Positions 18,585-64,000 of a stretch of 64,000 bases of DNA are shown piece by piece. The number at the start of each line of letters is the position of its first letter. The stretch's first letter is position 1. The notes beneath the pieces were generated by a model that saw nothing but the letters and a program-made list of their open reading frames with translations, was not told the DNA's origin and did no database searches. The position numbers were made by a program, and so were the translations under genes. The stretch comes from Phycisphaera sp. (lineage in GTDB: Bacteria > Planctomycetota > Phycisphaerae > Phycisphaerales > UBA1924). The stretch lies in assembly GCA_025916675.1 (NCBI GenBank), contig CP098402.1:2661205-2725204 (forward strand), given 5' to 3'.

Positions 18585-18680
18585 AGCGCCGTTCCTACGG
18601 AGATTCCGCGCGCCCATCGTGGCGGTGCGGCTTCCGTTGGTTTGGCCTCGATCCGTTCTCCACGTTCCCAGGAGCCATCC

Positions 18681-27967: not shown

Positions 27968-29356
27968 ATGCATCGATCCTCATTCGCCATTCGACGGTCC
28001 GCTGACTCCGAGACGGCTCATGCGCACGACGACCAGTACGAATCTGGAAGCCTGACCCTCACCGGTTCGATCGCGATGGGCACGGGCGTCATGATCGGTG
28101 CCGGCATCTTTGCCCTCACCGGCCAGGTCGCCGAACTTGCGGGGGGGCTGTTCCCGCTTGCATTCATCGCGGCCGCCGTCGTCGTCGCCTTCAGCGCGTA
28201 CTCGTACGTCAAGGTCTGCAGCCAGTATCCCTCGGCGGGCGGCATCGCCATGATCCTCAAGAAGGCCTACGGGCCCGGGGTCGTCACCGTCGGCTGCTCA
28301 CTACTGATGTACTTCTCGATGGTCATCAACGAGAGCCTGGTCGCACGCACCTTTGGCACCTACACGCTACGCATCTTCGGCAAGGGCTCCGACTCGTGGC
28401 TCGTGCCCGTCCTGGCCGTCGGCCTCATCGCCGTCGCGTTCGTGGTCAACCTACTTGGCAACACGCTCATCGGAGGGTTCAGCAAGGTCACCGCCGTTGT
28501 CAAGATCCTGGGCATCGCCGTGTTCGCCGGCATCGGTTTGTGGGTGTCGGGCCTCTCGTTTGACACCCTCACCTCAGGCGGTGCCGACCAGGCCAGCGGC
28601 GGGGTCACAGGCTTCCTTGCCGCGGTGGCGCTCTCGATCCTGGCCTACAAGGGCTTCACCACCATTACCAACAGCGGTGATGAGATCAAGAACCCGAAGA
28701 AGAACGTCGGGCGATCCATCATCTTCTCGCTCATCATCTGCACCGTTCTGTACATCATCGTTACCCTGGCCGTCGCGGCAAACTTGAGCGTCAACGAGAT
28801 CATCGCTGCCAAGGACTCGTCTCTGGCCGAAGCCGCGCGCCCTGCCGTGGGCCAGTGGGGCGAGTGGCTTACCGTCGCTCTGGCCATCGTCGCTACGATC
28901 TCCGGGCTCATCGCCAGCATGTTCGCCGCCTCGCGCATGTTTGCGATGCTTACCGACATGAAGCTTGTCCCGCACAGCCACTTCGGCATGCCCGGGCGCA
29001 TCCAGAAGCACACGCTTGTGTACACAGCCGTCATCGCGATGGTGCTGGCCACCTTCTTCGACCTCAGCCGGATCGCGTCGCTCGGGGCCATCTTCTACAT
29101 CGTCATGGATATGGCCATCCACTGGGGGGTCTACCGCCACCTCCGGAAAGATGTCGGCGCAAAGGCCCCCATCGTCCTGACCGCATTCGTGCTCGACGCG
29201 ATCGTACTGGGCGCGTTCCTGTACCTGAAGGCTACCTCTGACCCATTGGTGCTCGTGGTCTCGGTGGTCGGTATGGCCATCATCTTCGGTGCCGAGTGGT
29301 GGTTCATCAGGCGGTCCAATACCGCAGAGTCGACTCACAACAACGAAGCGATGTAG
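27968..29356 (+). CDS. APC-superfamily amino-acid permease
   Basis: 462 aa with about 12 helices. The first helix carries the APC substrate loop, [15 protein letters not shown]. Later landmarks are the SSYPSAGG-like '[19 protein letters not shown]' stretch, [24 protein letters not shown] and [15 protein letters not shown]. All agree with the APC (amino acid-polyamine-cation) family. It probably imports an amino acid. Its place between metal-binding proteins and a copper ATPase suggests a link to copper stress, for example uptake of a Cu-chelating or protective amino acid, but nothing in the sequence proves this. Confidence 0.87.
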
Positions 29357-29408
29357 TCAGTACCCGATACCCATTCGATCGATGGGAACGCCCAAGAGGA
29401 ACCAATCA

Positions 29409-31703
29409 ATGCCACGCGACCCCGTCTGCGGGATGGAAGTTACGCCTGACAATGCCGCCGCTCGTGTCGAGCACAACGGCCAGGAGCACCTGTTCTGCAG
29501 CACGGGGTGCGCTGACAAGTTCCGCGCCGACCCAGACAAGTACCTCGGTGGGCAAGCTCTCAAGTGCGAAGGCGCCGAGGATGCTATCTACACCTGCCCC
29601 ATGCACCCAGAAGTCAGGCAAGTCGGCCCGGGTGACTGCCCCAAGTGCGGCATGGCCCTCGAACCCGTCGACGCCACCGCCGAGCAGGATGACACCGAGC
29701 TGCGCGACACCACTCGTCGCTTCTGGATAGCCGCCACCCTCACCGCGCCGCTGCTGGTCTACGTCATGGGCAACATGCTACTGGGTCATCCTTTCGATCG
29801 CTGGATCAGCCCTGCAGTCAGCCAGTGGGCCGAACTCGCTCTGGCAACCCCGGTCGTGATCTGGTGCGCCTGGCCATTCTTCGTTCGCGGCGTTCGCTCC
29901 ATCAGGGCCCTCAGCCCGAACATGTGGACGCTCATCTCCATCGGTGTCTCGATCGCCTATGTCTTCAGCGTCGTGGCCACTATCGCCCCTGGCCTCTTCC
30001 CCGAGTCCCTGCGCGGCGAGTCGGGCCAGGTGGGGGTGTACTTCGAGGCTGCCGCCGTCATCGTTACCCTCGTGCTCTTGGGCCAAGTCATGGAGCTGCG
30101 TGCTCGCCGTCAGACCGGCGGCGCGATCCGCGAACTCCTCGAGCTTGCGCCACCCACGGCGCGACTGATCCGTGACATCGGCTCCGACGAGGAGGTGCCC
30201 GTGGATCAACTCGCTACCGGCGACCGCGTCCGTGTCCGCCCCGGAGACAAGATCCCCATCGACGGCAGCGTCAAGGAGGGCAAGAGCACCGTTGACGAGT
30301 CCATGCTCACCGGTGAGCCCGTGCCCGTTGAAAAGTCCTCGGGCGACGACGTCACCGGCGGCACCGTGAACAAGACCGGGTCCTTCGTTATGACCGTGAG
30401 TCGAACCGGCTCGGACACGACCCTCGCCCAGATCGTACAGATGGTCGCCGATGCCCAGCGCTCCAGAGCGCCCATCCAACGCCTGGCCGACGCCGTCGCC
30501 GCGTGGTTCGTGCCGATCGTCGTCGCCATCGCAATCATCGCCTTCATCACGTGGCTGCTAGTAGGCCCGTCGCCCTCGTTCAGCTACGCCCTGGTCGCCG
30601 CCGTTTCGGTGCTCATCATCGCATGCCCCTGTGCCCTCGGGCTGGCGACGCCCATGTCCATCATGGTCGCCGCCGGCCTGGGTGCCAAGCAGGGTGTGCT
30701 CGTCAAGAATGCCGCCGCGCTCGAAGCGTTCGAGTCCATCGACACCATCGTCGTCGACAAGACCGGCACGCTCACCGAAGGCAAGCCCAAGCTCGTGGGC
30801 GCCGACATGCAAGGCCGCCAGGACGAGCCACGCATCTTCGCCCTCCTGGCCGCCGCCGAACGCGGTAGCGAGCATCCTCTCGCTCAAGCCATCATCGAAG
30901 GCCTCGAAGAACACGCCCACGAGCGATTGGAAGCCACCGACTTCGAAAGCATCACTGGCAAGGGCATCATCGCCACCGTGGAGGGCTCCAAGATTGCTAT
31001 CGGCTCGCCCGCCCTCATGCAAGACCAGGACGTGGACATCACCGCGCTCACCGATCAGGCAGACCAGCACCGCAAGGAAGGCGCCACTGCCATGTTCGCC
31101 AGCGTCGATGGTCGGCTCACGACACTACTGGCCGTCGCCGACCCGATCAAGAAGACCACCCGCGTCGCCATCGACGCCCTGCACAAGCAGGGCCTCACCA
31201 TCGTCATGCTGACGGGCGACAACCAGACCACCGCTCGAGCCATCGCCGACCAACTCGGCATCGACCGTTTCGAAGCCGAGGTGCTACCCGAGCAGAAGGC
31301 CGCGACTATCCGCAAACTCCAGGCCGATGGTCACAAGGTCGCTATGGCAGGCGACGGCGTCAACGACGCGCCCGCACTGGCACAGGCCGACATCGGCGTC
31401 GCGATGGGTACCGGCGCGGGCGTGGCCATCGAGAGCGCCGCCATCACCCTCGTTGGCGGGGACCTCAACGGACTCGTCCGTGCCCGCGAACTCAGCCGCG
31501 CCACCATGCGCAACATCCGCCAGAACCTCTTCTTCGCATTTGCTTACAACACCGCCGGCGTGCCCATTGCCGCGGGCATCCTCTACCCCTTCTTCGGCGT
31601 CCTGCTCAGCCCCATGCTCGCCGCTGCGGCCATGAGCTTCAGCAGCGTCTCGGTCATCCTCAACGCGCTTCGGCTTCGCCTTCACGTCTTCCCTCGCTCC
31701 TGA
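29409..31703 (+). CDS. copA: CopA-like P1B-type copper-exporting ATPase with YHS and HMBD N-terminus
   Basis: 764 aa from ATG 29409 (AAGAGGAAC upstream). Instead of a CxxC HMA domain the N-terminus has a YHS domain ([13 protein letters not shown]...[17 protein letters not shown], residues 4-45) and an HMBD (YTCPMHP...[11 protein letters not shown], about 60-88). P-type landmarks follow: TGEPVPVEK in the actuator, the transmembrane CPC motif in [13 protein letters not shown] near 405, phosphorylation site DKTGTLTEG near 450, SEHPLA, GDNQTTA and [13 protein letters not shown] marks the Cu(I)/Ag(I) subfamily. It pumps copper out of the cytoplasm and ends the operon. Confidence 0.94.
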
Positions 31704-50414: not shown

Positions 50415-52565
50415 ATGACAGACCTGATACAACAAGGCCTGAAGCGCAAGCTAATCCGATTCAGCGATGATGACCGCAAACACATCGTCTACCTGCATCA
50501 GAAGCAGCGGCGAAACTACAACAATCCAGAAGAGATCGTTCAAGCCGACGCGTTTCTTCAACTGGTCTTGACATACGAATACCCCGTGGAGCACATCCGG
50601 CTCTTCGTCCCGGTCCAGATGGGCGTGTCGACGAAGGAAGCCGACATCATCGTCTACAACGACTCCGCCCACAAGTCGCCGCACATCGTGGTGGAATGCA
50701 AGCGGGAGACCGTGAGCGAGCAAGAGTTTGCCCGCGCTGCGGACCAAGCAGTCGGATACGCGATTGCCGAGGGTGCCCGATACGTTTGGGTCACCAGCAA
50801 GATCAAGAACGAGTACTTCGAGATCCCGGCGAAGAAGCCGAAAGATCGGATCACGATCCCCGATGTGCCGCAGCATGGCGTCAAGGAGCTCGCCCGCTTC
50901 AAGTATGCCAAGGATGGCGGTAAGACAAAGGACGGCCAGCGGCTCTTCCCCCTTGAGAAGGTCGGCGAAGATGAACTCACACGCCGTTTCAAACAGGCTC
51001 ATCAAGCGCTGTGGGGCGGCGGGGAACTCAACCCATCGGAAGCATTTGACGAGCTCGACAAGCTCATTTTTTGCAAGCTGTGGGACGAGCGAAAGCCTCG
51101 AAAAGCGGGTGAGCCTTACGACTTCCAGGTCATCACCGTTCCACCTGACAGCGGCTCAGAAGAGGCAAAGAAAGCCGCCAACGAGGCGACCAGCCTCAAC
51201 TTGTTTGAGCGGTTAAAGACGCTCTACGAGGACGGCCGTAAGAAGGATCCTGAGGTCTTTAAAGACGGCATCCGCCTCACCCCTACAAAGGCAAGGACGG
51301 TTGTCTCCTATCTGGAAGGAGTCAATCTTCAGGACACCGACCTAGACAGCAAGGGCCGCGCCTTCGAAACCTTCATGGGCTCCTTCTTCCGTGGCGATTT
51401 CGGGCAATACTTCACACCGCGTGTTATTGTACAGTTTGTCGTTGATGTGCTACCAATCGAGCACGACTCGTTGGTGCTCGATACATCTTGCGGCTCTGGC
51501 GGCTTCCTGCTGCACGCTCTTGACAAGGTTCGTCGCCAGGCGGGCGAGTACTACAAATCGGGAACCGTCAAGCACTACGAACATTGGCATCGCTTCGCCG
51601 AAAGGAATCTCTACGGCATCGAGATCAACGAACAAATCGCCCGGACGGCCAAGATGAACATGATCATCCACGACGACGGCCACACAAACGTGGTTGCCGC
51701 CGACGGCCTGATCCCTCCGCGCGATCTTCGCGACCGCACCAAGAATCAAGGCTTCAAGCCTGACCGATTCGACTTCATCATCACCAATCCCCCATTCGGC
51801 TCCACGATCAAGCAGACGGAAAAGGCCTACCTCCAGCACTATCGATTGGCGAATCGGGACGTGGACTGGCTCAACCCCAAGAGCAAGGCCGGTGAGCGCC
51901 CAGGACAGAGCACCGAGATTCTCTTTATCGAGCAGTGCCACATGTACCTCGCCGAGGGCGGGTATCTGGCCGTTGTCATCCCGGATGGCATCTTGACGAA
52001 CTCGTCACTGCAGTACGTCCGTGACGAGATCGAGGATTTATACCGGATCGTCGCCGTCGTCTCTCTGCCCCAAACCGCCTTTGCGGCGACCGGTGCCGTC
52101 GTCAAGAGCTCGGTACTGTTCCTACGGAAGCACCCAAAGGGCGTGACCGATCGCATGAGAGTGGCCAAGCAGACGCTCAAAGACGAGATTGCCGCCGAGG
52201 GCAAGCTCGTCCGAAAGCTCCGAGACATCGATAGCCGGCGGAAAACAATGCTTCGCGATCTGGCCGATCGCCCAGACTTTGCTGAGCGAACCAAAAACGA
52301 ACTCAAGAACAACGAGGAATATCAGGCCGCAAGAAAGGAACTTGCCGACACCTTCGCCACCGAATCAGAGGAACTACGTTTTGCGCTGAACGAGCGGTTC
52401 ACCGAAGCCCGCCGCTCTGAATTGCCTGACTATCCAATCTTCATGGCCATCGCTGAGGATATCGGTTACGACGCCACCGGACGGCCGACCGCCACTAACG
52501 AACTCGAGACCATCGCCACCGAACTCGCTCGCTTTGTAGAGTCCATCGCAGGGGAAGCGTTGTGA
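50415..52565 (+). CDS. BcgI-like fused nuclease-methyltransferase restriction subunit
   Basis: 716 aa. The N-terminal ~150 residues are an HSDR_N_2-type PD-(D/E)xK nuclease: AFLQLVLTYEYPVEHI, EADIIVYND and HIVVECKRE with the E-x-K pair. A helical linker follows. The gamma-class adenine methyltransferase has RGDFGQYFTPR, motif I LDTSCGSGGFLLHALD near 355 and motif IV NPPF near 460. No SF2 translocase is present. The order nuclease-methylase in one chain, with a separate HsdS gene next, resembles type IIB BcgI rather than type I enzymes. It overlaps the HsdS gene by 4 bp. Confidence 0.85.
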   Translation: MTDLIQQGLKRKLIRFSDDDRKHIVYLHQKQRRNYNNPEEIVQADAFLQLVLTYEYPVEHIRLFVPVQMGVSTKEADIIVYNDSAHKSPHIVVECKRETVSEQEFARAADQAVGYAIAEGARYVWVTSKIKNEYFEIPAKKPKDRITIPDVPQHGVKELARFKYAKDGGKTKDGQRLFPLEKVGEDELTRRFKQAHQALWGGGELNPSEAFDELDKLIFCKLWDERKPRKAGEPYDFQVITVPPDSGSEEAKKAANEATSLNLFERLKTLYEDGRKKDPEVFKDGIRLTPTKARTVVSYLEGVNLQDTDLDSKGRAFETFMGSFFRGDFGQYFTPRVIVQFVVDVLPIEHDSLVLDTSCGSGGFLLHALDKVRRQAGEYYKSGTVKHYEHWHRFAERNLYGIEINEQIARTAKMNMIIHDDGHTNVVAADGLIPPRDLRDRTKNQGFKPDRFDFIITNPPFGSTIKQTEKAYLQHYRLANRDVDWLNPKSKAGERPGQSTEILFIEQCHMYLAEGGYLAVVIPDGILTNSSLQYVRDEIEDLYRIVAVVSLPQTAFAATGAVVKSSVLFLRKHPKGVTDRMRVAKQTLKDEIAAEGKLVRKLRDIDSRRKTMLRDLADRPDFAERTKNELKNNEEYQAARKELADTFATESEELRFALNERFTEARRSELPDYPIFMAIAEDIGYDATGRPTATNELETIATELARFVESIAGEAL

Positions 52566-53986
52566 GCTTCGCTCTTAACGATGCGGTGAACCCTCCGAAC
52601 GTGTTCCTGATGGATCACTCAGAGCTGGAGTCCCGCTGGGATCCCAATTTCTACCGCTGCATGCGAGAGTTTCATCGGCGTATGGAGTCATGCCCGTACC
52701 CGATTCAGAGGCTTCGCAAATCGCTCGATCTGGTTCAGTATGGCAGCTCGGACCGGGCATCGGAGGTGCCCGAAGGCCTGCCAATGCTGCGAATGCTCAA
52801 CCTTCAGGACGACACATGGGACATCTCCGATCTCAAGTACATCGAGATGTCGGAGGACGACGAGAAGCGGTACCTGCTCAGGCATGGCGATATCCTGTTT
52901 AACAGAACGAATTCCAAGGAGCTCGTCGGCAAGTGTGGCGTGTTCGAACTGGACGGCGAGTACGTATTCGCGTCCTATCTGATCCGAGTCCGACTCAAGC
53001 CAAGCACGTTTGTTCCGCACTATGTCACGGCCTTTCTCTCCTCCGGGATCGGCCGGCTTCAGATCGAGGGGGTGAGCCGGCAGATCGCCGGGATGACGAA
53101 CGTCAACGCTGAGGAGATACGCGATCTCCTGATCCCCAATCCTGGACGGACAATTCAGGAGGAGATCGTTCGCCGCTGGCAAGACGCCGTTAGGCAGAGA
53201 GACCAGACGCTGGAAGAGGCGAAGCGGGTGCTGGCGGGGATCGACGATGTCCTGCTGGGTGAGCTCGGTGTCCCTCTGACGTCTAAATCACCGAATACGC
53301 TTGAGCGCCGGATGTTCTTACGCGCGTTCTCAATGGTTAGCGGAAAGCGCATCGATCCAAATGCGAACTGGAAGTCCCTGAGCTTTGCCGGGGGCAAGTA
53401 TCAACTTCGAAGATTCCGTGACGTAGTTGATATAAATCCGCCAACCAGTTTCGCACATGTTGAGCGACATGCGGACGTGTCTTTCGTTCCAATGGACGCG
53501 GTCTCAGAAGTGTTTGGTGATGTTGAGAACACTTTGACTCGACCCGTTGAAGGCCGCAGCGCTTATACAAAGTTTCAGGACGGTGACATCATTTGGGCTA
53601 AAATCACCCCCTGTATGCAGAACGGGAAGGCAGCGCTGCTGTCACAGCTAACCAAGGGTGTGGGGTATGGCTCTACCGAGTTTCACGTGTTCCGTGTCAA
53701 GGACGCGGATCTCCGCCACGATTATTTGCACCACCTGCTTCGACTGCAATCTGTCCGGGATCATGCGCGACTGTTCTTCACTGGCTCCGCCGGTCAACAA
53801 CGTGTTGATGCCGGGTTTTTTCACGAGCTTGACATTCCATTGCCGCCGGCATCTGTGCAAGGCAAGATTGCCAAAGCCGCGAGCGAGGCTCAACGACAAG
53901 CAAGGCAACTGGTCAAACAAGCTCGCATCGAGCTTGACAGATCGAAGCGAGGTATCGAAGCTCTCATTCTCGGCCAGGGAGACTGA
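52562..53986 (+). CDS. hsdS: Restriction-modification specificity subunit (HsdS-like)
   Basis: 474 aa from GTG 52562 (GTGA overlap). Two target-recognition halves are visible. The first ends in the usual conserved region (IPNPGRTIQEEIVRRWQDAV) with a coiled-coil spacer QRDQTLEEAKRVLAGID. The second, from about 285, contains YTKFQDGDIIWAKITPCMQNG (in two parts) and ends IPLPPASVQGKIAKAASEAQ plus a second coiled coil. It sets which bipartite DNA site the nuclease-methyltransferase binds. Only 3 bp separate it from the next gene. Confidence 0.87.
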   Translation: MSFALNDAVNPPNVFLMDHSELESRWDPNFYRCMREFHRRMESCPYPIQRLRKSLDLVQYGSSDRASEVPEGLPMLRMLNLQDDTWDISDLKYIEMSEDDEKRYLLRHGDILFNRTNSKELVGKCGVFELDGEYVFASYLIRVRLKPSTFVPHYVTAFLSSGIGRLQIEGVSRQIAGMTNVNAEEIRDLLIPNPGRTIQEEIVRRWQDAVRQRDQTLEEAKRVLAGIDDVLLGELGVPLTSKSPNTLERRMFLRAFSMVSGKRIDPNANWKSLSFAGGKYQLRRFRDVVDINPPTSFAHVERHADVSFVPMDAVSEVFGDVENTLTRPVEGRSAYTKFQDGDIIWAKITPCMQNGKAALLSQLTKGVGYGSTEFHVFRVKDADLRHDYLHHLLRLQSVRDHARLFFTGSAGQQRVDAGFFHELDIPLPPASVQGKIAKAASEAQRQARQLVKQARIELDRSKRGIEALILGQGD

Positions 53987-53989
53987 CCC

Positions 53990-55516
53990 GTGAAACTCCG
54001 CGGCTTACTAGACTCATCTCTCGGCGGCTTTCTGTGCATCCGCGGCTACGCTCCCCTCGGCGAGTTGGCCCGCTGCTCGGTCGCCGACGACAGCTACCAG
54101 CGCGACCTGATTACAACGCATCAGGAACGCATCCGCGAGTTTCTTGCTGACGGCGAGAATCTGTTTTTCCCCGAGGTCACCCTTGCCTGCCGCCTCCAAT
54201 ACGACCCTGACCGACCGCGTGCCAAGTCCGGCATTCAGATTCTCGCGTCTGTGCGCAATGGCGACCGCTTCAAGTCAAACGTCAACCAGATCGAAATCAC
54301 GAGCACCGCCAAGAAGTTCCAGAGCCCAGCCGACGTTCGTGCGTATGACACGGTTCGTGTCGCCACGCTCGACATCCCAGATGATTTGATCGACGCCGGA
54401 AGCGGCCCCCTGTCCCGGATCGACGGCAACCACCGCATAAGCGCGCACGATCTTCAGCCCAGCTTTGCAAAGCTACGATGCCCGTTTTGCGTGATCCTGT
54501 TCGACTCGTCGGACGAGGACCGACGGAAGAGCAAGACAATCTTTCATAACGTCAATTTTAAATCGATCCCGCTCACCGCTGAGCAGCACCTCAAGGTCGT
54601 ATTCGACGACGTGAGCCTTTTCCCCGACGAGATGCTTAAGAGCAGTCGCAGTTTCGGCGAGAGCTACGTGCTCGGCCGCCACGCCACGGCGAACGTGGAT
54701 CTGTCCGCAGCGCCAGCGATGTCGACAGCAGTCGACGGGAAGCGCCGAACCCTGTTCCACAAGCTTTACGAGTTGCTCATCCAGCATGGGCACGCTGTTG
54801 GGACGGTTGACCTGCAGTCAGCTTTGGCCCGCGTCAATAGCTTCTACTTGGACTACCCGACCATCGCTGAGAAGAAGTGCTTCGGCCTCGTGCTCGCGCT
54901 TGCCTATTACGCAGCGACAAACGATGCTGATGGACGCTTCAACTCGTTCAAGCGCTGGGTTGTCCGGAATCACATCGCAGAGATGGCCGAGGCCGATGCG
55001 GCCTCATTAGTCGCAATCTTCAACCGTGTCTACGAAGCCCGGAGCCGAACGGTCTTCGTATCCATGCCCTTCAACAAGAGCACGGACAGCGCGTATGAGG
55101 CAATAAAGGCCGCCGTGGGCGAGGTCAACAGTCGCCATCATCCGGGCATCGAACTGGAACAACTACGCATCGATAAGTATGACCAGGGCCACTCCTTTCG
55201 AATCAATGACAAGATCCTGGAGATGATCGATGACGCTGGCCTGTTGATCGCAGACCTGACACAGGGGAACCCGAACGTGTACCACGAGATTGGGTACATG
55301 ATGGGACTCAATCGCGGACGGCGTCGCCCGCAGGACAACTTCATCTTGATCGTCGATGGCACTGATCCGGAACAGGTCCGGAAGGACGTTGGCTTCAATC
55401 TTCAGGATTGGCAGCAGGTGCGATTCACCGACACGCTGGGACTGACAAGGCAGCTATACGAGAAGCTGTGCACGCACTACAAGTTGGACCCGAATGCGGA
55501 ATCTGCGACGGGTTGA
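53990..55516 (+). CDS. DGQHR/DndB-like domain fused to a deoxyribosyltransferase/TIR-like effector domain
   Basis: 508 aa, starting 3 bp after hsdS. Residues 30-230 follow the DGQHR (DndB-like) layout: DSYQRDL, FFPEVTLACRL, the hallmark RIDGNHRISA at 143-152, and IFHNVNFKSIPLT. Residues 235-345 are helical. From about 352 comes a nucleoside-2-deoxyribosyltransferase-like fold: TVFVSMPFNKSTDSAYEAI, IDKYDQGHSFRINDKIL, LLIADLTQGNPNVYHEIGYM with the catalytic-type Glu near 432. Domains of this kind act as NAD- or nucleotide-consuming or -sensing modules in defence proteins. I know no named family with this fusion; a guard or accessory role for the restriction cassette is inferred. Confidence 0.75.
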   Translation: MKLRGLLDSSLGGFLCIRGYAPLGELARCSVADDSYQRDLITTHQERIREFLADGENLFFPEVTLACRLQYDPDRPRAKSGIQILASVRNGDRFKSNVNQIEITSTAKKFQSPADVRAYDTVRVATLDIPDDLIDAGSGPLSRIDGNHRISAHDLQPSFAKLRCPFCVILFDSSDEDRRKSKTIFHNVNFKSIPLTAEQHLKVVFDDVSLFPDEMLKSSRSFGESYVLGRHATANVDLSAAPAMSTAVDGKRRTLFHKLYELLIQHGHAVGTVDLQSALARVNSFYLDYPTIAEKKCFGLVLALAYYAATNDADGRFNSFKRWVVRNHIAEMAEADAASLVAIFNRVYEARSRTVFVSMPFNKSTDSAYEAIKAAVGEVNSRHHPGIELEQLRIDKYDQGHSFRINDKILEMIDDAGLLIADLTQGNPNVYHEIGYMMGLNRGRRRPQDNFILIVDGTDPEQVRKDVGFNLQDWQQVRFTDTLGLTRQLYEKLCTHYKLDPNAESATG

Positions 55517-55750
55517 CGAAGCCCAGTCCCGCAGGTCCGGCATTCGCTCGCCGAGATGAGCGTCATGGCCCGCGAGCTGTCCGAGATGCCCAAGCTCGAC
55601 TGGACCCAGCGCGAGAGCGTCCGCGCCGGTCTGCGCCGCAGTGTCCGCCGGTTGCTGGCCAAGTACGGCTACCCGCCCGACCTAAGCGAGGGCGCGACGC
55701 AGTTAGTCTTGAGACAGGCGGAGCTCTCGACGGAGCATGGGAGCGAATGA
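55517..55750 (+). pseudogene. hsdR: Type I restriction subunit HsdR, C-terminal fragment
   Basis: Open directly after the stop of the preceding gene and in the same frame; an internal ATG is at 55556. The translation reads [20 protein letters not shown], then [41 protein letters not shown] and ends [10 protein letters not shown] (parts quoted separately). This is the DUF3387 end of HsdR. The nuclease and translocase parts are missing. With the HsdM fragment at 49893 it frames the newer cassette. Confidence 0.8.
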
Positions 55751-55758
55751 TCACTCTT

Positions 55759-56205
55759 TTACATCGAAGCCGAATCGAGCCGCTTCCGCCACAGCGTTCT
55801 CTGACGCGACCAACTCGTCGTCCGAGTAATTGCCCTCATGTGTCGCTCGGTGACCGGATCCCGGCCCTCCGCGACGGCCGACAGAAAGAGAACCTCTTCC
55901 TGGATATCAGGGGCTAGGTGCAGCAGGTTCATGATCTGGGTCATGCGCGGCTGGGTAACTCGAGCGAGATGGGCCAGCTCGGTCAGGTTGTCGACTACGC
56001 CGTCGCGGAGAAGACCGTCATAGCGGATCGCAAGGGCCATCAGGCGCGACACCCGCGGCACACGGCCAACCGGAGCGTCTGGGGCCCCGCCACTGGCCAG
56101 AGGGGTACTCGCCAGATCTTGGCCTGGCTCAAGTGGTGAGCCGATGACGGCCCGCTTGCGGTGGCCCTTGACGGCGAAGTGGATCTGGCGGGTTACGGTG
56201 GTCAT
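55759..56205 (-). CDS. Small HTH (ParB/KorB-like) protein of the recombinase element
   Basis: 148 aa from ATG 56205, which overlaps the recombinase stop (ATGA). An HTH is visible near residues 85-108: VVDNLTELAHLARVTQPRMT followed by QIMNLLHL. The N-terminus reads MTTVTRQIHFAVKGHRKRA. Proteins like this follow a serine recombinase and DUF2924 gene in many bacterial elements; the role is unclear, perhaps control of the recombinase genes. It ends 8 bp from the HsdR fragment on the other strand. Confidence 0.72.
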   Translation of the reverse strand: MTTVTRQIHFAVKGHRKRAVIGSPLEPGQDLASTPLASGGAPDAPVGRVPRVSRLMALAIRYDGLLRDGVVDNLTELAHLARVTQPRMTQIMNLLHLAPDIQEEVLFLSAVAEGRDPVTERHMRAITRTTSWSRQRTLWRKRLDSASM

Positions 56206-57788
56206 GCCGCGTCTCCGAGTTTGCGGTCGATGAGGGCTCGGATGCTCGTTGGGCGGAACGTTACCGAGACGCTCTGGGCCTCGGCGTCGTACTCAACCAC
56301 GCTGATCAGCAGTTGCAGCAGCCGGGCCTGCTCGCGAGGGATCAGATTCTGCCAAAGTAGTTCGAAGTCGGCGAATGCCGCCGATGCCTCCTCCGGGCCG
56401 ATGCTCTCTCGCCCGAGCTCGGCGAGCCGCTCTTCGACCGCGGGCAATCGGTTCTGGGCATCGCTCAGACGCTCGTGGAGTTCTGCAATGCGTGCGGAGA
56501 CCTCCGTGGTGGCGGCGCCGTCGGAGGCCAGCCGTCGAAGCTCGCGATCGTGCTGGGAGAGCTCCCGTCTCAGCCCATCACGTTCGGCTTTGGCCGCTTC
56601 AATGTCAGCCCCCACCGCGGTTTGGGCATCGGCCAGCACTCGCACAAGCAGATCCCGGTCGTTGGCTAACCCACGGATCTCGTCGATGACGACCCGCTCG
56701 ATTTCTGCTGCCGGCAATGTCCCGGAAGGACATGAGCCCGCCCCACGCTTCATGGCCCGAACGCAGCGGTAGTAGCGGTACGACTTTCCGTTGCGGCCGC
56801 CGGTAAAGGTGTGGGACATCGAGTGATCGCAGCACTTGCACCGAAGCAGGCCTCGGAGCAGCGCACCATACTTGTTGCGCACCTCGACCCCTCCGGTTCG
56901 GCCGTTGTGCTTCAGCAAGGCCTGAACCCGATCGAACACCTCGCGGTCGATGATGGGCTCGTGCTCGCCGTCGTACACATCCCCCTTGTGGCAAATCTTG
57001 CCAACGAACACGGGGTTGGTCAGCAGTACATACAACGTGGCCTTGTCGAAGGGTCGGCCGCCGAGGTGTTTGCCTTTCTTTGTGATGCGTCGCTTGTTGG
57101 GCCACTGGCGATGGGCGAGCTCGCTGGCCACCGTGAGCAAAGACTCCTTGGCCAAGTACAACTTGAAGATCTCGCGGACTCTGGCCGCCTCCTTTGCGTT
57201 GATCACTAGCCGCGGGCTTGGACCGGACCGATCGACGTCGTAGCCCAGAACCGGCACGCCACCCGCCCACTTACCCCTGCGCTTCTGGGCCGCGATCTTG
57301 TCGCGGATGCGCTCTCCGATGATCTCACGCTCGAACTGGGCGAAGGACAGCAGGATGTTCAGCGTCAGTCGTCCCATCGAGCTGGTGGTGTTGAACTGCT
57401 GCGTCACCGAAACGAACGAGACGCCATTGCGATCAAACGTTTCCACGATCCGGCTGAAGTCCATGAGAGATCGGCTTAGGCGATCGACCTTGTACACCAC
57501 GACACAATCGATCTTGCCCGCTTCCACATCTCGGAGAAGCCGGTCGAGCGCCGGCCGCTCCATGCTGCCACCAGAGAATCCGCCATCGTCGTAGCGGTCG
57601 GGCAGACACGTCCAGCCCTCGGCCTTCTGGCTGGCAACGAACGCCTCGGCGCTCTCCCGCTGGGCGTCGAGCGAGTTGAATTCCTGGTCTAACCCCTCCT
57701 CGCTGCTCTTTCGGGTGTAGATGGCGCATCGCACCCCTGGCCTTGGCTTGCCAGCCCCCGCGTCGCTCTTCTGACGAGAAGTTCTCAT
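56202..57788 (-). CDS. Large serine recombinase
   Basis: 528 aa. The resolvase domain starts CAIYTRKSSEEG, with the catalytic Ser probably at 28 in the Y-x-R-x-S motif. Further landmarks are DDGGFSGGSMERPALDRLL, VYKVDRLSRSL and LTLNILLSFAQFEREI. The recombinase domain (about 190-300) contains HLGGRPFDKATLYVLL. A zinc ribbon follows, CKCCDHSMSH...YYRC...C, then a coiled coil (about 400-480). This is the large serine recombinase type that integrates and excises elements by short att sites. It is coupled by ATGA overlaps to DUF2924 upstream and the HTH gene downstream. Confidence 0.93.
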   Translation of the reverse strand: MRTSRQKSDAGAGKPRPGVRCAIYTRKSSEEGLDQEFNSLDAQRESAEAFVASQKAEGWTCLPDRYDDGGFSGGSMERPALDRLLRDVEAGKIDCVVVYKVDRLSRSLMDFSRIVETFDRNGVSFVSVTQQFNTTSSMGRLTLNILLSFAQFEREIIGERIRDKIAAQKRRGKWAGGVPVLGYDVDRSGPSPRLVINAKEAARVREIFKLYLAKESLLTVASELAHRQWPNKRRITKKGKHLGGRPFDKATLYVLLTNPVFVGKICHKGDVYDGEHEPIIDREVFDRVQALLKHNGRTGGVEVRNKYGALLRGLLRCKCCDHSMSHTFTGGRNGKSYRYYRCVRAMKRGAGSCPSGTLPAAEIERVVIDEIRGLANDRDLLVRVLADAQTAVGADIEAAKAERDGLRRELSQHDRELRRLASDGAATTEVSARIAELHERLSDAQNRLPAVEERLAELGRESIGPEEASAAFADFELLWQNLIPREQARLLQLLISVVEYDAEAQSVSVTFRPTSIRALIDRKLGDAA

Positions 57789-58291
57789 GGCTTGCCTCCG
57801 AGGCGGAAGAATCGGAAGCCGTTGATGTGGCTTCCAGTTACGTGCTTTGCCACGGCGGTTAGCGTGCGGAAGCGGTCGCCGTCGTACTCGAATCCCTGAC
57901 CCTCGGGCAGCACCAGCACTCGGATCGTGCGGCTCTTGTACTCGCGCACGATGACTGATCCTGGCTCCGGTATCCTCGGGTCGGGATCGCTGCCGGGCCG
58001 GAAGGCACGCTCGTGCGTCACGATCGAGCCTGTCTGCGGCGGGTGGATGACGGTCTTGGGAGCCATCACTCGTACCTCGGCATCGTCGGCCAACTCGGCT
58101 GCCCGGCGCCTCGCACGCTCGGACAGGTCGCCCTCAGCCTTGGCCTGCATGCGCCAGGCGATCTTTCGGATCAGATAGTGCCGATGCCGCGTGCGGCTCC
58201 GATAGCCGTGCAACTCCACGAATCGATCGAGTAGGTCGCCCGTTGTCATCGCATCGAGTGACGCGAGTTGTTCATCCAAAGCGGTTGCCAT
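57785..58291 (-). CDS. DUF2924 protein of the recombinase element
   Basis: 168 aa. DUF2924 landmarks: DLLDRFVELHGYRSRTRHRH near 20-38, YLIRKIAWRMQAKAEGDLSE, PGSVIVREYKSRTIRVLVL and GFEYDGDRFRTLTAVAKHVTG split here, then HINGFRFFRLG. The C-terminal half resembles a SPOR/winged DNA-associated fold found in phage-like proteins. The family nearly always sits before a serine recombinase, as here (4-bp overlap), so it probably assists recombination; its biochemical role is not known to me. Confidence 0.88.
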   Translation of the reverse strand: MATALDEQLASLDAMTTGDLLDRFVELHGYRSRTRHRHYLIRKIAWRMQAKAEGDLSERARRRAAELADDAEVRVMAPKTVIHPPQTGSIVTHERAFRPGSDPDPRIPEPGSVIVREYKSRTIRVLVLPEGQGFEYDGDRFRTLTAVAKHVTGSHINGFRFFRLGGKP

Positions 58292-59472: not shown

Positions 59473-59844
59473 TCACACAGACTTTGGACTGTTTACCGGG
59501 GAAAGGTCGAGGGCATACTCGTCGATGTGGCACCAGCCGCGTTCGAGCAGCACGGGCACGCAGGGATCGATCACGCGATACATGACCTGGAGCCCATCGC
59601 GCCGCTTGCCGACCACTCCCACCTCTGCCAGACGTTGCAACTGATTCGACACCGCCTGGACCGTCATGCCGGTCTCATCCGCGAGTTCTCCCACGCTGAG
59701 TTCGTCCACCCGGATTAGGGAGTGGAGCAGGCGGAGCCGGGTTGGATGGGCCAAACTCTTGAAGAGAGATCCAACCCGCTCAGCATCGAGCGCACCGATC
59801 AGCGGACGGGCGGCCAGGGGCAGTTTTGGGCGGCAAGACTCCAT
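59473..59844 (-). CDS. ArsR/SmtB-family metal-responsive repressor
   Basis: 123 aa from ATG 59844 with AAGGG upstream. Winged-helix landmarks: LFKSLAHPTRLRLLHSLIR near 30, LSVGELADETGMTVQAVSNQLQ (split) as recognition helix, and VGVVGKRRDGLQVMYRVID as wing. The alpha-3 ELCVCDL-type Cys pair of CadC/ArsR is absent (DELSVGELA). Possible ligands lie in the C-terminal helix, CVPVLLERGWCHIDEYALD (Cys, His, Asp, Glu), as in alpha-5-type sensors such as CzrA or SmtB. It should repress both itself and the divergent efflux operon through the inverted repeat at 59883-59916. Confidence 0.88.
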   Translation of the reverse strand: MESCRPKLPLAARPLIGALDAERVGSLFKSLAHPTRLRLLHSLIRVDELSVGELADETGMTVQAVSNQLQRLAEVGVVGKRRDGLQVMYRVIDPCVPVLLERGWCHIDEYALDLSPVNSPKSV

Positions 59845-59882: not shown

Positions 59883-59916
59883 CTTGACTATTACACGATA
59901 GTGTGTAATAGTCAAG
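59883..59916. promoter_or_regulatory. Divergent operator/promoter: perfect 14-bp inverted repeat
   Basis: CTTGACTATTACAC (59883-59896) and GTGTAATAGTCAAG (59903-59916) form a perfect inverted repeat around GATAGT. Each arm contains TTGACT, a good -35, and TAATAG 16 bp further in either direction could be the -10. The promoters for the ArsR gene and the efflux operon would therefore overlap the operator exactly, so repressor binding would block both. Confidence 0.75.
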
Positions 59917-59944: not shown

Positions 59945-60385
59945 GTGAAACACCAACCGGCCATCTCGATCCTGCTCGCTCTCTGGTTCGTCCTGGGAGC
60001 CGGCCTCGGTCCGCGGTTCCTCTGCATCTGTCCTGATGGAACAACGACCACCCAGTTCGGCGAGCAATACTGCTGTGACGAGCCAAGCAAGAGCCCATGC
60101 CCCCCCAACCCAGAGCACGGCGATTCCTTGAATCGCTGTGTTGCCTGCCCGGACGGCGGATGCCAGTCCACCGAGGTGGAGTCAGAATCAATTGTCGCTG
60201 CCGACCGATTCGAAAGAGACGCGGATTATGGCAGGTCGTTAGACGGGTCGGATGGTCAGGTCATCGCACTCCGCGAACTCCTCGCGAAGCAGCCAGCGAT
60301 AACACAACCACCATTCCGATCTCTGATGATGGAGAGGGCTAGGCCCTTTCATCGCCATCTCCGTACGGTAGTTCTCCTCGTTTAG
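59945..60385 (+). CDS. Small exported Cys-rich protein heading the second RND operon
   Basis: 146 aa from GTG 59945. A hydrophobic N-terminus (ISILLALWFVLGAGLG) is followed by a Cys cluster: FLCICPDG, QYCCDEPSKSPC, NRCVACPDGGC (nine Cys between residues 27 and 73). The remainder is charged. It is the first gene after the ArsR operator and precedes the OMF gene. Metal binding in the periplasm or at the membrane is inferred. It parallels the 18165 protein in size, export signal, Cys cluster and position. Confidence 0.7.
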   Translation: MKHQPAISILLALWFVLGAGLGPRFLCICPDGTTTTQFGEQYCCDEPSKSPCPPNPEHGDSLNRCVACPDGGCQSTEVESESIVAADRFERDADYGRSLDGSDGQVIALRELLAKQPAITQPPFRSLMMERARPFHRHLRTVVLLV

Positions 60386-60478
60386 GACGACCTGGGATTC
60401 TGCGCGGTACCTGTACCTCGCTCGATACTCCCAGGGGCTCGGCGCGTGCCGGGCAACGTATCTATCCGAGTGGAACAC

Positions 60479-61885
60479 ATGCGATTGACTGAACCCCACC
60501 TGTTGTGCTGCTTGAGCGCCGTCGTTCTGCTGAATGGTTGCGTGCGTTCGCCTTTCGACTTCGAGCCGCCCGCCGCACGGCCTCTCTTGCGTGACTTGCC
60601 TCGCTACGAAGCACCGGAGAATCCTGACCGAGCTGTAGGAGGAACTGATGTGGTCGTCATCGGGGCGGAACTGCCCCTCCGTCAGGCTCTCGCGGCTGCG
60701 CTCGTGCGCAACCCGCGGCTGCGATCGCTTGCGTGGGAGCCCAGGATCGCCGAGGCGCAACGCCTGCAGGCCGGCCTCTTGCCCAACCCAAGCGTCGGTG
60801 TCGAAGTCGAGGACTTTGCGGGCACAGGAGACTTGAGTCGCGCTGACTCTGCCGAGACAACCATTGCGTTTAGCCAGCTTCTTGAGCTTGGTGGGAAACG
60901 AGACAGCCGCGTACGGATCACGGAAGACCAATGGACTGTCGCCGTTCTCGATCTCGAGGCGCAGCGGCTGACCGTCCTGACCGAAACCGCGTCTCGTTTC
61001 GTGCGTGTCTTGGAACTCCAGCAGCGCGTCGCGTTCGCCGGTCGTGCACATGCACTCGCGGAGGAGAATCGGCGCGTCATCGATCGGCGGGTGCAGGCCG
61101 GGGATGTTTCGCCCATCGACGAGATCAAGGCCCGACTCGAAAGCGAATCCGCTCGCATTGCCGCAGATCGGCTGGGCCGCGAACTCGATGCGGCGAGACG
61201 CGAACTTAGTGCCATGTGGGATGCGACCGAGCCCGGCTTCGATGTTGCCGTCGGATCGCTTGATGATCTCATGCCGGTTCCGTTGCTCGACGCGCTCACC
61301 AATCTCGTGGAGCAGCACCCTGAAGTACAGCGTTGGGTCGCAGAGGCCGAGCGACGATCGTCGGTAGTCGCTCTCGAACGAGCTAGAGCGGTCCCGGATG
61401 TGACGGCCGGGTTTGGCATTCGGCGTTCCGAAGAGAGCGATGATGTTGGGCTCGTGGTGTCGGCGTCCGTACCACTGACCATCTTCGATCGCAATCAGGG
61501 GGGTATCCTGGCTGCTCGTCTGCGGGCAGCGCAAGCGATCGCCGAAGGCCGGGCATCCCGCCGCGATCTAGCGACCCGACTTGTTCGGGCGCACGCACGG
61601 TTGACTGCTGCGTATCACGAGGCGAAGGCGATCGACACCGCTCTGCTTCCCGCCGCACAGGACGCTTACGAGGCAACGCGCCGGGCCTACGACGAGGGCA
61701 AGCTTCCGTACCTCGATGTCCTCGATGCACAGCGCACACTGTTTGAGACCGAAACACAACGGCTCGAAGCCCTCGCGGAATACCACGCTGCAAAAGTACA
61801 GGTCGAAGGACTTGTCTCGGAACCGCTGGACTCCGAATTGCTCCGCGAAGACTCTGATCACCACCATCAAGGAGAAACACCGTGA
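60479..61885 (+). CDS. CzcC-like TolC-family outer-membrane factor
   Basis: 468 aa from ATG 60479. Lipoprotein signal with lipobox LNGC near residue 20. The OEP architecture follows: LPLRQALAAALVRNPRLRSL, LLPNPSVGVEVEDFAGTG, IAFSQLLELGGKRDSRV as the CzcC-type signature, then two coiled-coil halves, closing with AYDEGKLPYLDVLDAQRTLF. The C-terminus is His-rich (DHHHQGE). It forms the exit duct of the pump and overlaps the adaptor gene by 4 bp (GTGA). Confidence 0.9.
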   Translation: MRLTEPHLLCCLSAVVLLNGCVRSPFDFEPPAARPLLRDLPRYEAPENPDRAVGGTDVVVIGAELPLRQALAAALVRNPRLRSLAWEPRIAEAQRLQAGLLPNPSVGVEVEDFAGTGDLSRADSAETTIAFSQLLELGGKRDSRVRITEDQWTVAVLDLEAQRLTVLTETASRFVRVLELQQRVAFAGRAHALAEENRRVIDRRVQAGDVSPIDEIKARLESESARIAADRLGRELDAARRELSAMWDATEPGFDVAVGSLDDLMPVPLLDALTNLVEQHPEVQRWVAEAERRSSVVALERARAVPDVTAGFGIRRSEESDDVGLVVSASVPLTIFDRNQGGILAARLRAAQAIAEGRASRRDLATRLVRAHARLTAAYHEAKAIDTALLPAAQDAYEATRRAYDEGKLPYLDVLDAQRTLFETETQRLEALAEYHAAKVQVEGLVSEPLDSELLREDSDHHHQGETP

Positions 61886-63648
61886 GACTGTCACACTGCG
61901 TCGTGCCACTTACCTGTCTGTTCGCAACAGCGTTGCTACTCGGCGGGTGCGACGACGAGAACCGCTCGTCGCCCAGTTCAACCCAGTCGCTGGATGTAAC
62001 GCAGGTCGCACATTCGCACGAGGACGGCGGAAGCTGCTTTGTCTGCGACGCTGCGAAGCGAGACGCGGGTCGCCTGTGGTGTACCGAGCACGCCCGGTAC
62101 GAGAACCGTTGCTGGATCTGCCAGCCGCAGCTTGAGGAGCCATCTCGGCCGTACTGCGAAGAGCACTATTTGTACCAGGACGAGTGCCACCTCTGCAATC
62201 CGGTACTCGCTACTTCCGAGGGAGCAGCGGCGGAATCCAGAGGTGGCCTACATGGGCACGGTGCTGACGAGACCTGCTTCATGTGTGACCCAGAGAAACG
62301 TGACGCGGGCCGCTTGTGGTGCACCGAACATACTCGGTACGAGGACCGTTGCTGGATCTGCCAGCCCCAGTTGAAGGACAGCTCTCGAGCGTACTGCGAG
62401 CAGCACTTCCTCTACGAAGATGAGTGCCACCTTTGCAACCCATCGCAGGGTGGCGCCTCGGCTACACCATCTCGCGATGATGCTCCGGCGATGTTCTGTC
62501 ATGAGCACGGCGTGGACGAGATTGAATGCGGGATCTGCCAGCCACAGCTCGCCACGACGCTCGCTCCTGGCGAGTCGTTGCTCGTCCGCATGCCCTCAGC
62601 GAGATCGGCCGAACTTGCCGGGCTGACGCTTGAGCGACCAGACCGCGGGGCCGCATCGCCCTCGATCAGCCTCCTAGGCGAGGTCCGCTACAACGGGAAC
62701 AGGTTGGCGAAGCTCACGCCGTTAGCCCCCGGTGTCATCACAGACATCCGTGTTGATGTTGGCGACCAGGTTGAAGAAGGGAAGATTCTCGCGGTTATCA
62801 ATTCCATGGCGGTGGCACAGGCGAAGTCCGCGTACCTGTCCAAGATCGCAGAGCTCGAAGCGAGAACCACCGTGTTCGATCGTGAGCAGAAGCTCGTCAA
62901 CGAGAACATCGCGGCTCGCCGGGACTTCCAGGATGCCCAGGCGGCTCTGAAGCTCGCTGAGCTTGAGATGCGTCGCACACACCAGCAACTCATCAACCTC
63001 GGCTTTATCGAGTCGGAAGTCTCCGGCATCGCAGCCGAGCAGTCGTCGTCATCGGACCTGTACGTTAGGGCACCTTTTAACGGCACTGTCGTAGAACGGA
63101 CAGCCGTTCTGGGCGAGGCAGCGGATTCGGAGGGGTCACTCTTCGAGATCGCCGACCTGACGACCATGTGGATCGAGCTTGCGGTCCCTGAAGAGCAAGC
63201 GTTTCAGATCGAGCGTGGCGGGGACATCGTCGCGAGAGTCCGGGCTTTGCCCGGACTGGAGATCCCCGGACAGATTACCTGGATCAGCCCGCGTATCGAT
63301 GAACGCACACGCATGGTTCGGGCTCGTGCGACGGTCCTGAACGACCGCAGCGTCCTTCGGCACGGCATGTTCACAGAGGTTGCCGCGATGATCGGCGGTA
63401 CTACGAACTCGCTGCTTGTCCCCGGTGAAGCGGTGCACGAGATCGATGGCACATCTTTCGTGTTTGTGCAGCAGGAACCGGATCTGTTCGCGGTTCGGCG
63501 TGTCGATGTAGGCGTGCGCACAGCCTCAGGTACCGTTGCGATTCTGGCGGGCCTCACCGAGAACGATGCCGTTGTAACCGGTGGCAGTTTCACCATGAAG
63601 ACTGAGTTTCTCAAGTCCCGACTCGGCGCGGGATGCGTCGACGACTGA
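61882..63648 (+). CDS. CzcB-like adaptor with an N-terminal Cys/His repeat region
   Basis: 588 aa from GTG 61882. Lipoprotein signal, lipobox LGGC with Cys23. Residues 50-223 contain five copies of 'C-x2-H-x6-C-x-[IL]-C-x-P' (C67, C92, C147, C172, C206 begin them) plus two leading C-x2-C-D motifs (C52, C132). The two large units repeat every 80 residues. The membrane-fusion core follows: NRLAKLTPLAPGVITDIRVD, coiled-coil hairpin (about 305-370), RAPFNGTVVERTAVLGEAAD and beta-barrel ISPRIDERTRMVRARATVL. It should deliver or sense divalent metal for the CzcA pump. Confidence 0.9.
   Translation: MRLSHCVVPLTCLFATALLLGGCDDENRSSPSSTQSLDVTQVAHSHEDGGSCFVCDAAKRDAGRLWCTEHARYENRCWICQPQLEEPSRPYCEEHYLYQDECHLCNPVLATSEGAAAESRGGLHGHGADETCFMCDPEKRDAGRLWCTEHTRYEDRCWICQPQLKDSSRAYCEQHFLYEDECHLCNPSQGGASATPSRDDAPAMFCHEHGVDEIECGICQPQLATTLAPGESLLVRMPSARSAELAGLTLERPDRGAASPSISLLGEVRYNGNRLAKLTPLAPGVITDIRVDVGDQVEEGKILAVINSMAVAQAKSAYLSKIAELEARTTVFDREQKLVNENIAARRDFQDAQAALKLAELEMRRTHQQLINLGFIESEVSGIAAEQSSSSDLYVRAPFNGTVVERTAVLGEAADSEGSLFEIADLTTMWIELAVPEEQAFQIERGGDIVARVRALPGLEIPGQITWISPRIDERTRMVRARATVLNDRSVLRHGMFTEVAAMIGGTTNSLLVPGEAVHEIDGTSFVFVQQEPDLFAVRRVDVGVRTASGTVAILAGLTENDAVVTGGSFTMKTEFLKSRLGAGCVDD
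62032..62442 (+). repeat. Two 171-bp coding repeats, 240-bp period, in the adaptor gene
   Basis: Units at 62032-62202 and 62272-62442 encode near-identical Cys/His-rich segments (residues 51-107 and 131-187), separated by a variable acidic/Gly-rich spacer. Shared strings include RDAGRLWCTEH and RCWICQPQL. The protein identity is higher than needed for metal ligands alone, suggesting fairly recent duplication. Confidence 0.8.
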
Positions 63649-63660
63649 TCCGGAGCCCCT

Positions 63661-64000
63661 ATGCTGACCCGTCTTATCGAGATCTCGCTCCGGAACAGGG
63701 TGCTCGTCATTCTGCTGTTCGCGATTGCATGCGCCGCAGGCGTCTATCGGATGATCCAGCTCCCGATCGACGCGTTTCCCGACACGACACCGATCCAGGT
63801 GCAGATCAACACGGTGGCCCCCGCGCTCAGCCCCGAAGAGATCGAGCAACAGATCACGCTCCCTGTCGAACTCTCAATCGGCGGGCTTCCCGGTCTCCAG
63901 AACGTGCGGTCGGTCTCAAAGTTCGGGTTCTCGCAGGTCGTAGCCACGTTCGATGATGACATTCGCATCATCGACGCCCGGCAGTACATCACGGAGCGGC
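63661..64000 (+). CDS. czcA: CzcA-type heavy-metal RND pump, 5' part
   Basis: 113 codons visible from ATG 63661, 12 bp after the adaptor gene; the rest lies beyond the window. MLTRLIEISLRNRVLVILLF is the first helix, followed by LPIDAFPDTTPIQVQINTVA, LSPEEIEQQITLPVELSIGG and LPGLQNVRSVSKFGFSQVV (quoted in pieces), the typical N-terminal block of CzcA/HME-RND pumps. 'FPDTTPIQVQINT' is closer to Czc-type (Zn/Co/Cd) than to the FPDIGENQ of the CusA-like pump at 22134, in line with a different metal. Confidence 0.93.
   Translation, partial: MLTRLIEISLRNRVLVILLFAIACAAGVYRMIQLPIDAFPDTTPIQVQINTVAPALSPEEIEQQITLPVELSIGGLPGLQNVRSVSKFGFSQVVATFDDDIRIIDARQYITER

Follow-up and report, generated by a model that had tools for sequence, protein, structure and literature searches.

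The adaptor gene at positions 61882..63648 (+) of a stretch of 64,000 nucleotides from Phycisphaera sp. (contig CP098402.1; the whole stretch is called the window) encodes a chain of seven short Cys/His units that very probably binds metal. Taken together, the ligand pattern, the relatives and the gene context favor a reading in which this array captures metal of the Zn/Cd type for the Czc-type efflux pump encoded by the next gene, with triplets of units as capacity and the last unit as the point of hand-over. The product is a periplasmic adaptor of the resistance-nodulation-division (RND) class with 588 residues and a CzcB/ZneB-like core, and its reading frame is open throughout. Its GTG start overlaps the stop codon of the upstream outer-membrane factor (OMF) gene, and it is a predicted lipoprotein in which a lipobox found by eye (LLGGC) puts the predicted lipidation site at Cys23 (61948..61950, +). 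A preliminary description of this DNA had called the protein an RND adaptor, and two profiles with curated cut-offs confirm it: TIGR01730 (RND_mfp) scores 153.6 bits against a cut-off of 94.9 over residues 271-573, and HlyD_D23 scores 149.3 bits against 30 over residues 259-497. The gene also lies between those for an OMF and an RND pump. The core delimited by these profiles (62656..63618, +) has ZneB (3lnn) as its best fold match.

N-terminal to the core there are five exact copies of C-x2-H-x6-C-x-[IL]-C-x-P, with ligands at residues 67/70/77/80, 92/95/102/105, 147/150/157/160, 172/175/182/185, and 206/209/216/219, and two additional CxxC motifs at residues 52-55 and 132-135. Equivalent positions are exactly 80 residues apart (52 to 132, 67 to 147, and 92 to 172). 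Five copies, two further CxxC motifs and two 80-residue periods before the core are what the preliminary description had reported, and the residue positions bear out each of these points. The segment comprising residues 40-236, which contains 19 Cys and 12 His, was shuffled 20,000 times as a control. Seven CxxC motifs arose in 7 of the 20,000 shuffles, and five copies of CxxHx6CxxC arose in none (mean 0.009, maximum 2). Both additional CxxC motifs are preceded, five residues upstream, by an HxH pair (HSHEDGGSCFVC at residue 44 and HGHGADETCFMC at residue 124); two HxH-CxxC copies were likewise found in 0/20,000 shuffles. Four verrucomicrobial relatives (L024, L026, L028, and L029, where L numbers designate individual loci) have a canonical C-x2-H-x6-C-x2-C at this position. 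Because HxH precedes each additional CxxC and these homologues carry a canonical CxxH there, the array is probably (A B C)(A B C) D, that is, seven four-ligand units instead of five plus two half-sites. The earlier estimate of five to seven metal sites therefore stands as about seven Cys/His units of four ligands each, for which metal is the best reading; what does not stand is the treatment of the two CxxC motifs as extras, since both are probably parts of full units.

The seven units, all on the + strand, are A1 (HxH-x5-CxxC, residues 44-55, 62011..62046), B1 (CxxH-x6-CxxC, residues 67-80, 62080..62121), C1 (residues 92-105, 62155..62196), A2 (HxH-x5-CxxC, residues 124-135, 62251..62286), B2 (residues 147-160, 62320..62361), C2 (residues 172-185, 62395..62436), and D (residues 206-219, 62497..62538). 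The A units are recognized by their ligands and the B and C units by the motif. Unit D, which adjoins the core, is placed by its ligands and by a profile alignment discussed below.

Ligand conservation and predicted structure

In 83 distinct array open reading frames (ORFs), where every CxxC was counted irrespective of upstream ligands, an upstream ligand pair is present at 360 of 366 CxxC motifs (300 CxxH, 46 HxH, and 14 CxH). Six are bare, and one of these, in L049, has HxxH upstream by eye. A unit profile detected 287 units. All four ligands (C/H/C/C) are present in 283, and a gap or an X is the only deviation in the remaining four; canonical units served as the seed of the profile, which biases this count upward. 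In the 287 units the upstream Cys and His are fixed, whereas the residue after CxxC is variable, mostly Q, H, N, or D, and Glu is nearly fixed at unit positions 10 (266/287) and 5 (237/287). The ligands of unit D are invariant in 41 of 41 aligned rows. Exchanges of Cys and His among units preserve four ligands, and in the A units it is the first Cys that is replaced by His. The assignment of four ligands to each copy is thus supported, with three Cys and one His retained in the profile-detected units.

A full-length AlphaFold2 (AF2) model, used for confidence and secondary structure only, places a short hairpin in all five CxxH units. The predicted local distance difference test (pLDDT) values, taken in blocks of ten residues, are about 72-82 at most B and C units and 85-93 around unit D. 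No Pfam family scored over its cut-off on the array in 19 array rows (18 other rows at E 0.02). The name "zinc-ribbon," used for the repeats in the preliminary description, is not supported: no Pfam zinc family is over its cut-off in the 19 rows, and the AF2 model has short hairpins. The nearest Pfam family, CxC6, reached 27.3 bits against a cut-off of 27.5 in L030 and 11.1 bits in the window row, and membership was not accepted. NCBIfam gave no array match below E 0.005, and a search of PDB sequences with the array profile gave an unrelated chain as its best match (E 0.061). A literature search covering titles and the start of abstracts, with subscription journals mostly outside its scope, returned no paper on the motif, the peptide EHGVPES or such adaptor N-terminal domains. 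Judged by its sequence, the protein is of a known kind, a heavy-metal efflux (HME) RND adaptor, with an N-terminal module that lies outside the copies of Pfam and NCBIfam used and outside solved structures.

Unit number, distribution and pump type

The array was matched at 47 loci in genome contigs, which come from Planctomycetota, Verrucomicrobiota, Acidobacteriota, Latescibacterota, Omnitrophota, Eisenbacteria, and Desulfobacteraceae (labels of metagenome-assembled genomes, MAGs, as given). The host genome is complete, with 3.62 Mb in one contig; in its phylum, 29 of 294 genomes have an array match at 1e-3, and the nearest named array relatives of the window adaptor are in Phycisphaerales MAGs. 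A protein search of a plasmid collection with the array matched 0 records. One contig labeled Acidimicrobiia (L014) falls inside the Phycisphaerales clade, with 67-86% identity for the regulator, OMF, adaptor core, and pump, and is probably mis-binned.

A survey of repeat number among homologues had been proposed in the preliminary description, and the 83 ORFs give a range of 1 to 9 four-ligand units per array adaptor, with differing linkers. Nine units are present in L086, L088, and L093 and a single unit in L053 and L103, beside the same pump type; L060 has nine units and one bare CxxC. Such lineage-variable numbers would fit a role in capacity, as a buffer. In a tree of adaptor cores made by a quick method, a single clade (100*) holds the seven-unit Phycisphaerales group together with L031-L033, which have four units, and L034, which has three units plus one bare CxxC. 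The seven-unit L024/L026/L028/L029 group joins the four-unit L036/L038/L040/L044 (87), and the seven-unit L027 and L030 join the four-unit L042 (96*). In a tree of triplets, which has 69 columns and few starred forks, the first and second triplets (T1 and T2) of the L024 group cluster together (99*), and those at T2 in Phycisphaerales make up a clade of their own (97*). These distinct clades speak for separate triplet duplications in the two groups. The triplets within L024, L029, and L050 are by their similarity recent copies, with 93-94% protein identity between triplets 1 and 2 in each of the first two and 93% DNA identity in L050. Selection was assessed in ten pairs of Phycisphaerales-type adaptors. 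In the six usable pairs, with dS <1.5 in both parts, dN/dS is alike in the array (0.019-0.087) and the core (0.048-0.092); array dS was 2.9-3.0 in two of the ten and not computable in two.

Units also occur apart from adaptors. Of 40 planctomycete stretches, 16 have a small separate ORF with two to three units near a pump or adaptor, namely 14 of the 20 stretches around array matches (L087, L088, L089, L091, L094, L095, L096, L098, L099, L100, L101, L102, L104, and L105) and 2 of the 20 chosen by pump (L157 and L160). Twelve of the 16 ORFs immediately follow an RND gene in the same orientation; the one in L088 lies ~1.4 kb behind, and those of L095, L096, and L102 precede the adaptor. A lipobox was seen by eye in 12 of the first 14. 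For such small planctomycete lipoproteins without a family, a function as metal carriers is suggested.

The association with pumps was approached from both sides. A pump-based survey covered 119 genomes, with at most six candidates scored per genome. Among the pumps listed at an identity of at least 49% (23 in number), an array adaptor is adjacent in 21, there is none in L162, and the adaptor is off the contig in L174. A further 17 pumps were listed at 43-47% identity; 11 were read, and array units are present in 2. In six of the nine array-less adaptors of this group, a tail rich in His, Asp, and Glu replaces the array.

In the HME classification, DFG in the fourth transmembrane helix (TM4) marks divalent-type pumps and AIG marks Cu/Ag-type pumps. 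The pumps beside 76 array adaptors were surveyed, a set that includes near-identical rows (e.g. L009/L010 and L015/L016) and L045, which is cut by a contig edge, and that lacks the truncated L021, excluded by a length rule, as well as L058 and L061, second copies of L036 and L048. A script located the pump for 66 of them, all DFG. Searches with tblastn for the remaining ten found DFG in L051, L052, L087, and L090 and GFG in L169 (first set) and L171; contig ends intervene in L013, L014, and L022, and there is no pump on the stretch in L102. The readable pumps are therefore 70/72 DFG, 2 GFG, and 0 A[IL]G. The two exceptional RND pumps, L169 (G106:C44:4671-7736) and L171, have GFGNITD in TM4 instead of DFG...D, and their adaptors have one or two units. 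In contrast, in 20 stretches selected for HMBD (PF19335), 15 adaptors were recognized by pattern and an A[IL]G pump is beside all 15 (14 AIG and 1 ALG). The other five have HMBD-bearing ATPases (L138 and L140) or no pattern-recognized HMBD adaptor (L145, L150, and L155, with AIG or AVG pumps). TM4 of the window pump, LGAIDFGILVDGSVVMTEAN, has the DFGxxxD......E signature of CzcA-type divalent HME-RND proteins. As this signature is commonly understood, the pump is of the divalent (CzcA) type, and export of Zn, Co, or Cd is predicted from it.

In a profile alignment (hhalign), the CxxC of unit D pairs with the CPxC of HMBD and the alignment continues through the core (314 columns, E 2.4e-51), which places unit D in the HMBD slot of copper adaptors. 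When N-terminal pieces were aligned, a forced global alignment joined both ligand pairs and a local alignment covered only CxxC onward. Unit D and HMBD may share common descent. The HMBD profile itself (cut-off 23.6 bits) gave no match to the window adaptor at E 0.1, nor to the 19 array rows at E 1, and none of the three HMBDs in the host genome is at the array adaptor gene.

Proposed role and alternative explanations

In the mechanism that we propose, the N-terminal third of the lipoprotein adaptor would be a chain of seven mini-units of ~25 residues, each offering four soft or borderline ligands (Cys3His, or His2Cys2 in the A units) and most likely forming one site of the Zn2+/Cd2+ type. The array would capture divalent metal in the periplasm, near the membrane and beside the inlet of the Czc-type RND pump. 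The ABC triplets would serve as expandable capacity (buffer or antenna), and unit D would be the likely hand-over point, which may also report loading to the pump. Capture and relay of metal to the pump is somewhat favored; gating of the pump by the array, for which CusB is the precedent, is possible but doubtful. An evenly balanced further proposal is that the units constitute an undescribed periplasmic, metal-binding repeat family of ~25-residue Cys3His modules. In Planctomycetota, Verrucomicrobiota, and other phyla, one branch of divalent RND pumps would use these modules both fused to adaptors, as antennae, and free, as anchored chaperones. The number of units (1-9) would then be set by lineage-specific tandem duplication, the last unit would have replaced HMBD, and the family would be a periplasmic, pump-coupled analogue of metallothionein.

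Several observations weigh against the capture array. The close relative L162 is without it, so the array is not essential to the pump type, and 9 of the 11 more distant pumps that were read also have adaptors without one. The split by pump type mostly follows two old pump clades, so that adaptor rows are not independent, and the array adaptors of L169 and L171 are beside a divergent GFG pump. L034 has lost the ligand pair of one A unit, and L023 the CxxC of one. The full AF2 model has no hairpin at the A units (pLDDT 52-78), the status of which rests on ligands and homologues, and the array modeled alone by AF2 scored a pLDDT of 54 and a predicted template modeling (pTM) score of 0.21, a model that was set aside. 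For L027 and L030, T1 and T2 are not grouped by protein in the tree of triplets, so a separate expansion there is not supported. The preference for Zn over Cu(I), Fe, or Co is a chemical expectation only. The lack of DsbB and VKOR matches, described below, is compatible with other oxidants.

The alternative that survives best, although unlikely, is that the metal is purely structural: Zn-stabilized beads would stiffen, space, or oligomerize the adaptor or dock it to the pump or to peptidoglycan, and the metal would never be exchanged. C3H sites often bind Zn tightly, and unit D is modeled with high confidence beside the core; its invariance (41/41 rows) extends to E186, P199, and L205, for which no role as ligands is expected. 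However, unit numbers from 1 to 9 and varying linkers are ill-suited to a part whose geometry is critical; the units exist also as small separate proteins near pump or adaptor, and what stands in place of the array in six of nine array-less adaptors is an acidic and His-rich tail, not a fold. Less probable again is a metal-loaded switch, in which the array would mainly sense metal and, once filled, open the pump or bring about its assembly, in the manner of CusB. The N-terminal fragment 1-61 of CusB has three Met ligands and binds Cu(I), and it is reported to be capable of activating CusCBA (PMC6235853). The position of unit D in the HMBD slot would suit such a role; against it, one site would suffice where there are seven, and arrays of one and of nine units are beside the same pump type.

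The case that the preliminary description had named as refuting its own reading, a disulfide-bonded Cys-rich periplasmic domain without metal, is disfavored and slightly more remote than the switch. The periplasmic location and the seven CxxC pairs would agree with it. However, canonical units have three Cys and a fixed His, and the first Cys becomes His in the A units. No recognizable VKOR or DsbB match was found in the complete host genome, which does have DsbD; of 14 control genomes, the same searches were positive in 3 (VKOR) and 6 (DsbB). Metal is preferred over disulfides because of the odd number of Cys with the fixed His, the Cys/His exchanges that keep four ligands, and the lack of DsbB and VKOR matches alongside DsbD. 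Attachment of c-type heme at CxxCH has a negligible chance: CxxCH occurs in 76 of 287 units, in relatives only, and the position after CxxC varies among Q, H, N, and D while the upstream Cys and His are fixed; for the window protein, where 0/7 units have CxxCH and D, Q, or N follows CxxC, a c-type cytochrome was rejected.

Neighboring genes and known systems

A divergent gene for an ArsR/SmtB-type regulator (59473..59841, -; start chosen by eye) precedes the operon. Its D-x-C-x10-H-x2-E motif resembles an alpha5 site, with the spacing of the SmtB alpha5 site. Of 18 orthologous loci, 16 retain the motif; it is different in L011 and unreadable in L012. Between the regulator and the operon lies a perfect inverted repeat with 14-nt arms, CTTGACTATTACAC-n6-GTGTAATAGTCAAG (59883..59916), the core of which is unique in the window (0 expected) and exact in 9 of 18 fetched loci with the regulator; it is a probable operator. 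The genes then follow in the order small Cys-rich protein, OMF, adaptor, pump, Cation_efflux. The first encodes an exported protein of 146 residues (59945..60385, +) with 35-63% identity in orthologous operons. The OMF is an outer-membrane efflux protein (OEP; 60446..61885, +) for which the nearest NCBIfam model is IhpA, below its cut-off. The CusA/CzcA-family RND pump, recognized by profile and TM4, starts within the window (63661..64000, +) and continues to L085:10979, and its end is overlapped by a Cation_efflux gene of the cation diffusion facilitator (CDF) type (L085:10976-11578). Farther downstream are another RND set, a lipoprotein rich in His, and another gene of the Cation_efflux family. 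Because of the SmtB-like sensor site, the DFG pump, and the two Cation_efflux genes nearby, the context points to divalent metal.

Small exported Cys/His-rich proteins are found in metal-efflux operons at 59945-60385 of the window, L085:11694-12119, and L091:5083-5526, the first two without a Pfam match; these are possibly periplasmic metal carriers or regulators. A lipoprotein-like ORF with a long His/Asp-rich stretch (L085:18401-18946) adjoins a Cation_efflux gene. A copper/silver gene set is located in the window ~30 kb from the divalent set. It includes a Cus-type OMF, adaptor, and pump set (18642-25967), in which the adaptor (20117-22141) has two HMBDs and a DUF3347 match below cut-off and the pump (22134-25967) is of the AIG type with IAIAIGTIVDMGIVLSEN, and a P-type ATPase with YHS and HMBD (29289-31703). 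Type I restriction-modification genes, followed by a serine recombinase (56202-57788, -) and a DUF2924 gene, occupy 50415-58291, shortly before the metal operon, and this region is a possible edge of a mobile island.

To our knowledge, the copper route CusF-CusB-CusA has been worked out further than the collection of metal in the periplasm for divalent HME-RND pumps. A module in one to nine copies, fused or free, beside one pump type makes the relation of site number to efflux capacity or threshold a testable question. The core of the window adaptor has its best fold and sequence match in ZneB/CzcB (3lnn, E 8.5e-24 by fold and 3.5e-24 by phmmer), but the phmmer match spans residues 256-567 only and the array has no counterpart in the alignment. 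ZneB binds Zn2+ between its barrel and membrane-proximal domains (PMC4446572). IhpA is the top NCBIfam match of the OMF and IhpB the third best for the adaptor (IhpABC, NF045679/NF045680); assignment to Ihp was rejected, with 229.7 of the 650 bits needed for the OMF and 128.6 of 450 bits for the adaptor (IhpB equivalog NF045680). HMBD (PF19335) on CusB-type adaptors resembles the array units in being a short C-x2-H...C-x2-C module directly N-terminal to the HlyD_D23 core. It differs in that the loop between the ligand pairs is longer, the module usually ends in CGM, copies are few, and the pumps beside it are A[IL]G. Metallothioneins likewise have many Cys-based sites in a small protein; the array differs in that each unit has its own four ligands including His and is periplasmic. 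Further parallels are the N-terminal Met site of CusB, CusF, and the C-terminal domain of SilB, which are adaptor-borne and stand-alone periplasmic metal-chaperoning modules for HME-RND pumps (PMC4446572 and PMC6235853). CusF is a Cu(I)/Ag(I) protein with a beta-barrel fold, whereas the arrays described here are multi-unit Cys/His chains beside divalent-type pumps. The occurrence of CusF as a free protein or fused in SilB-type adaptors (PMC4446572) is mirrored by the free and fused array units.

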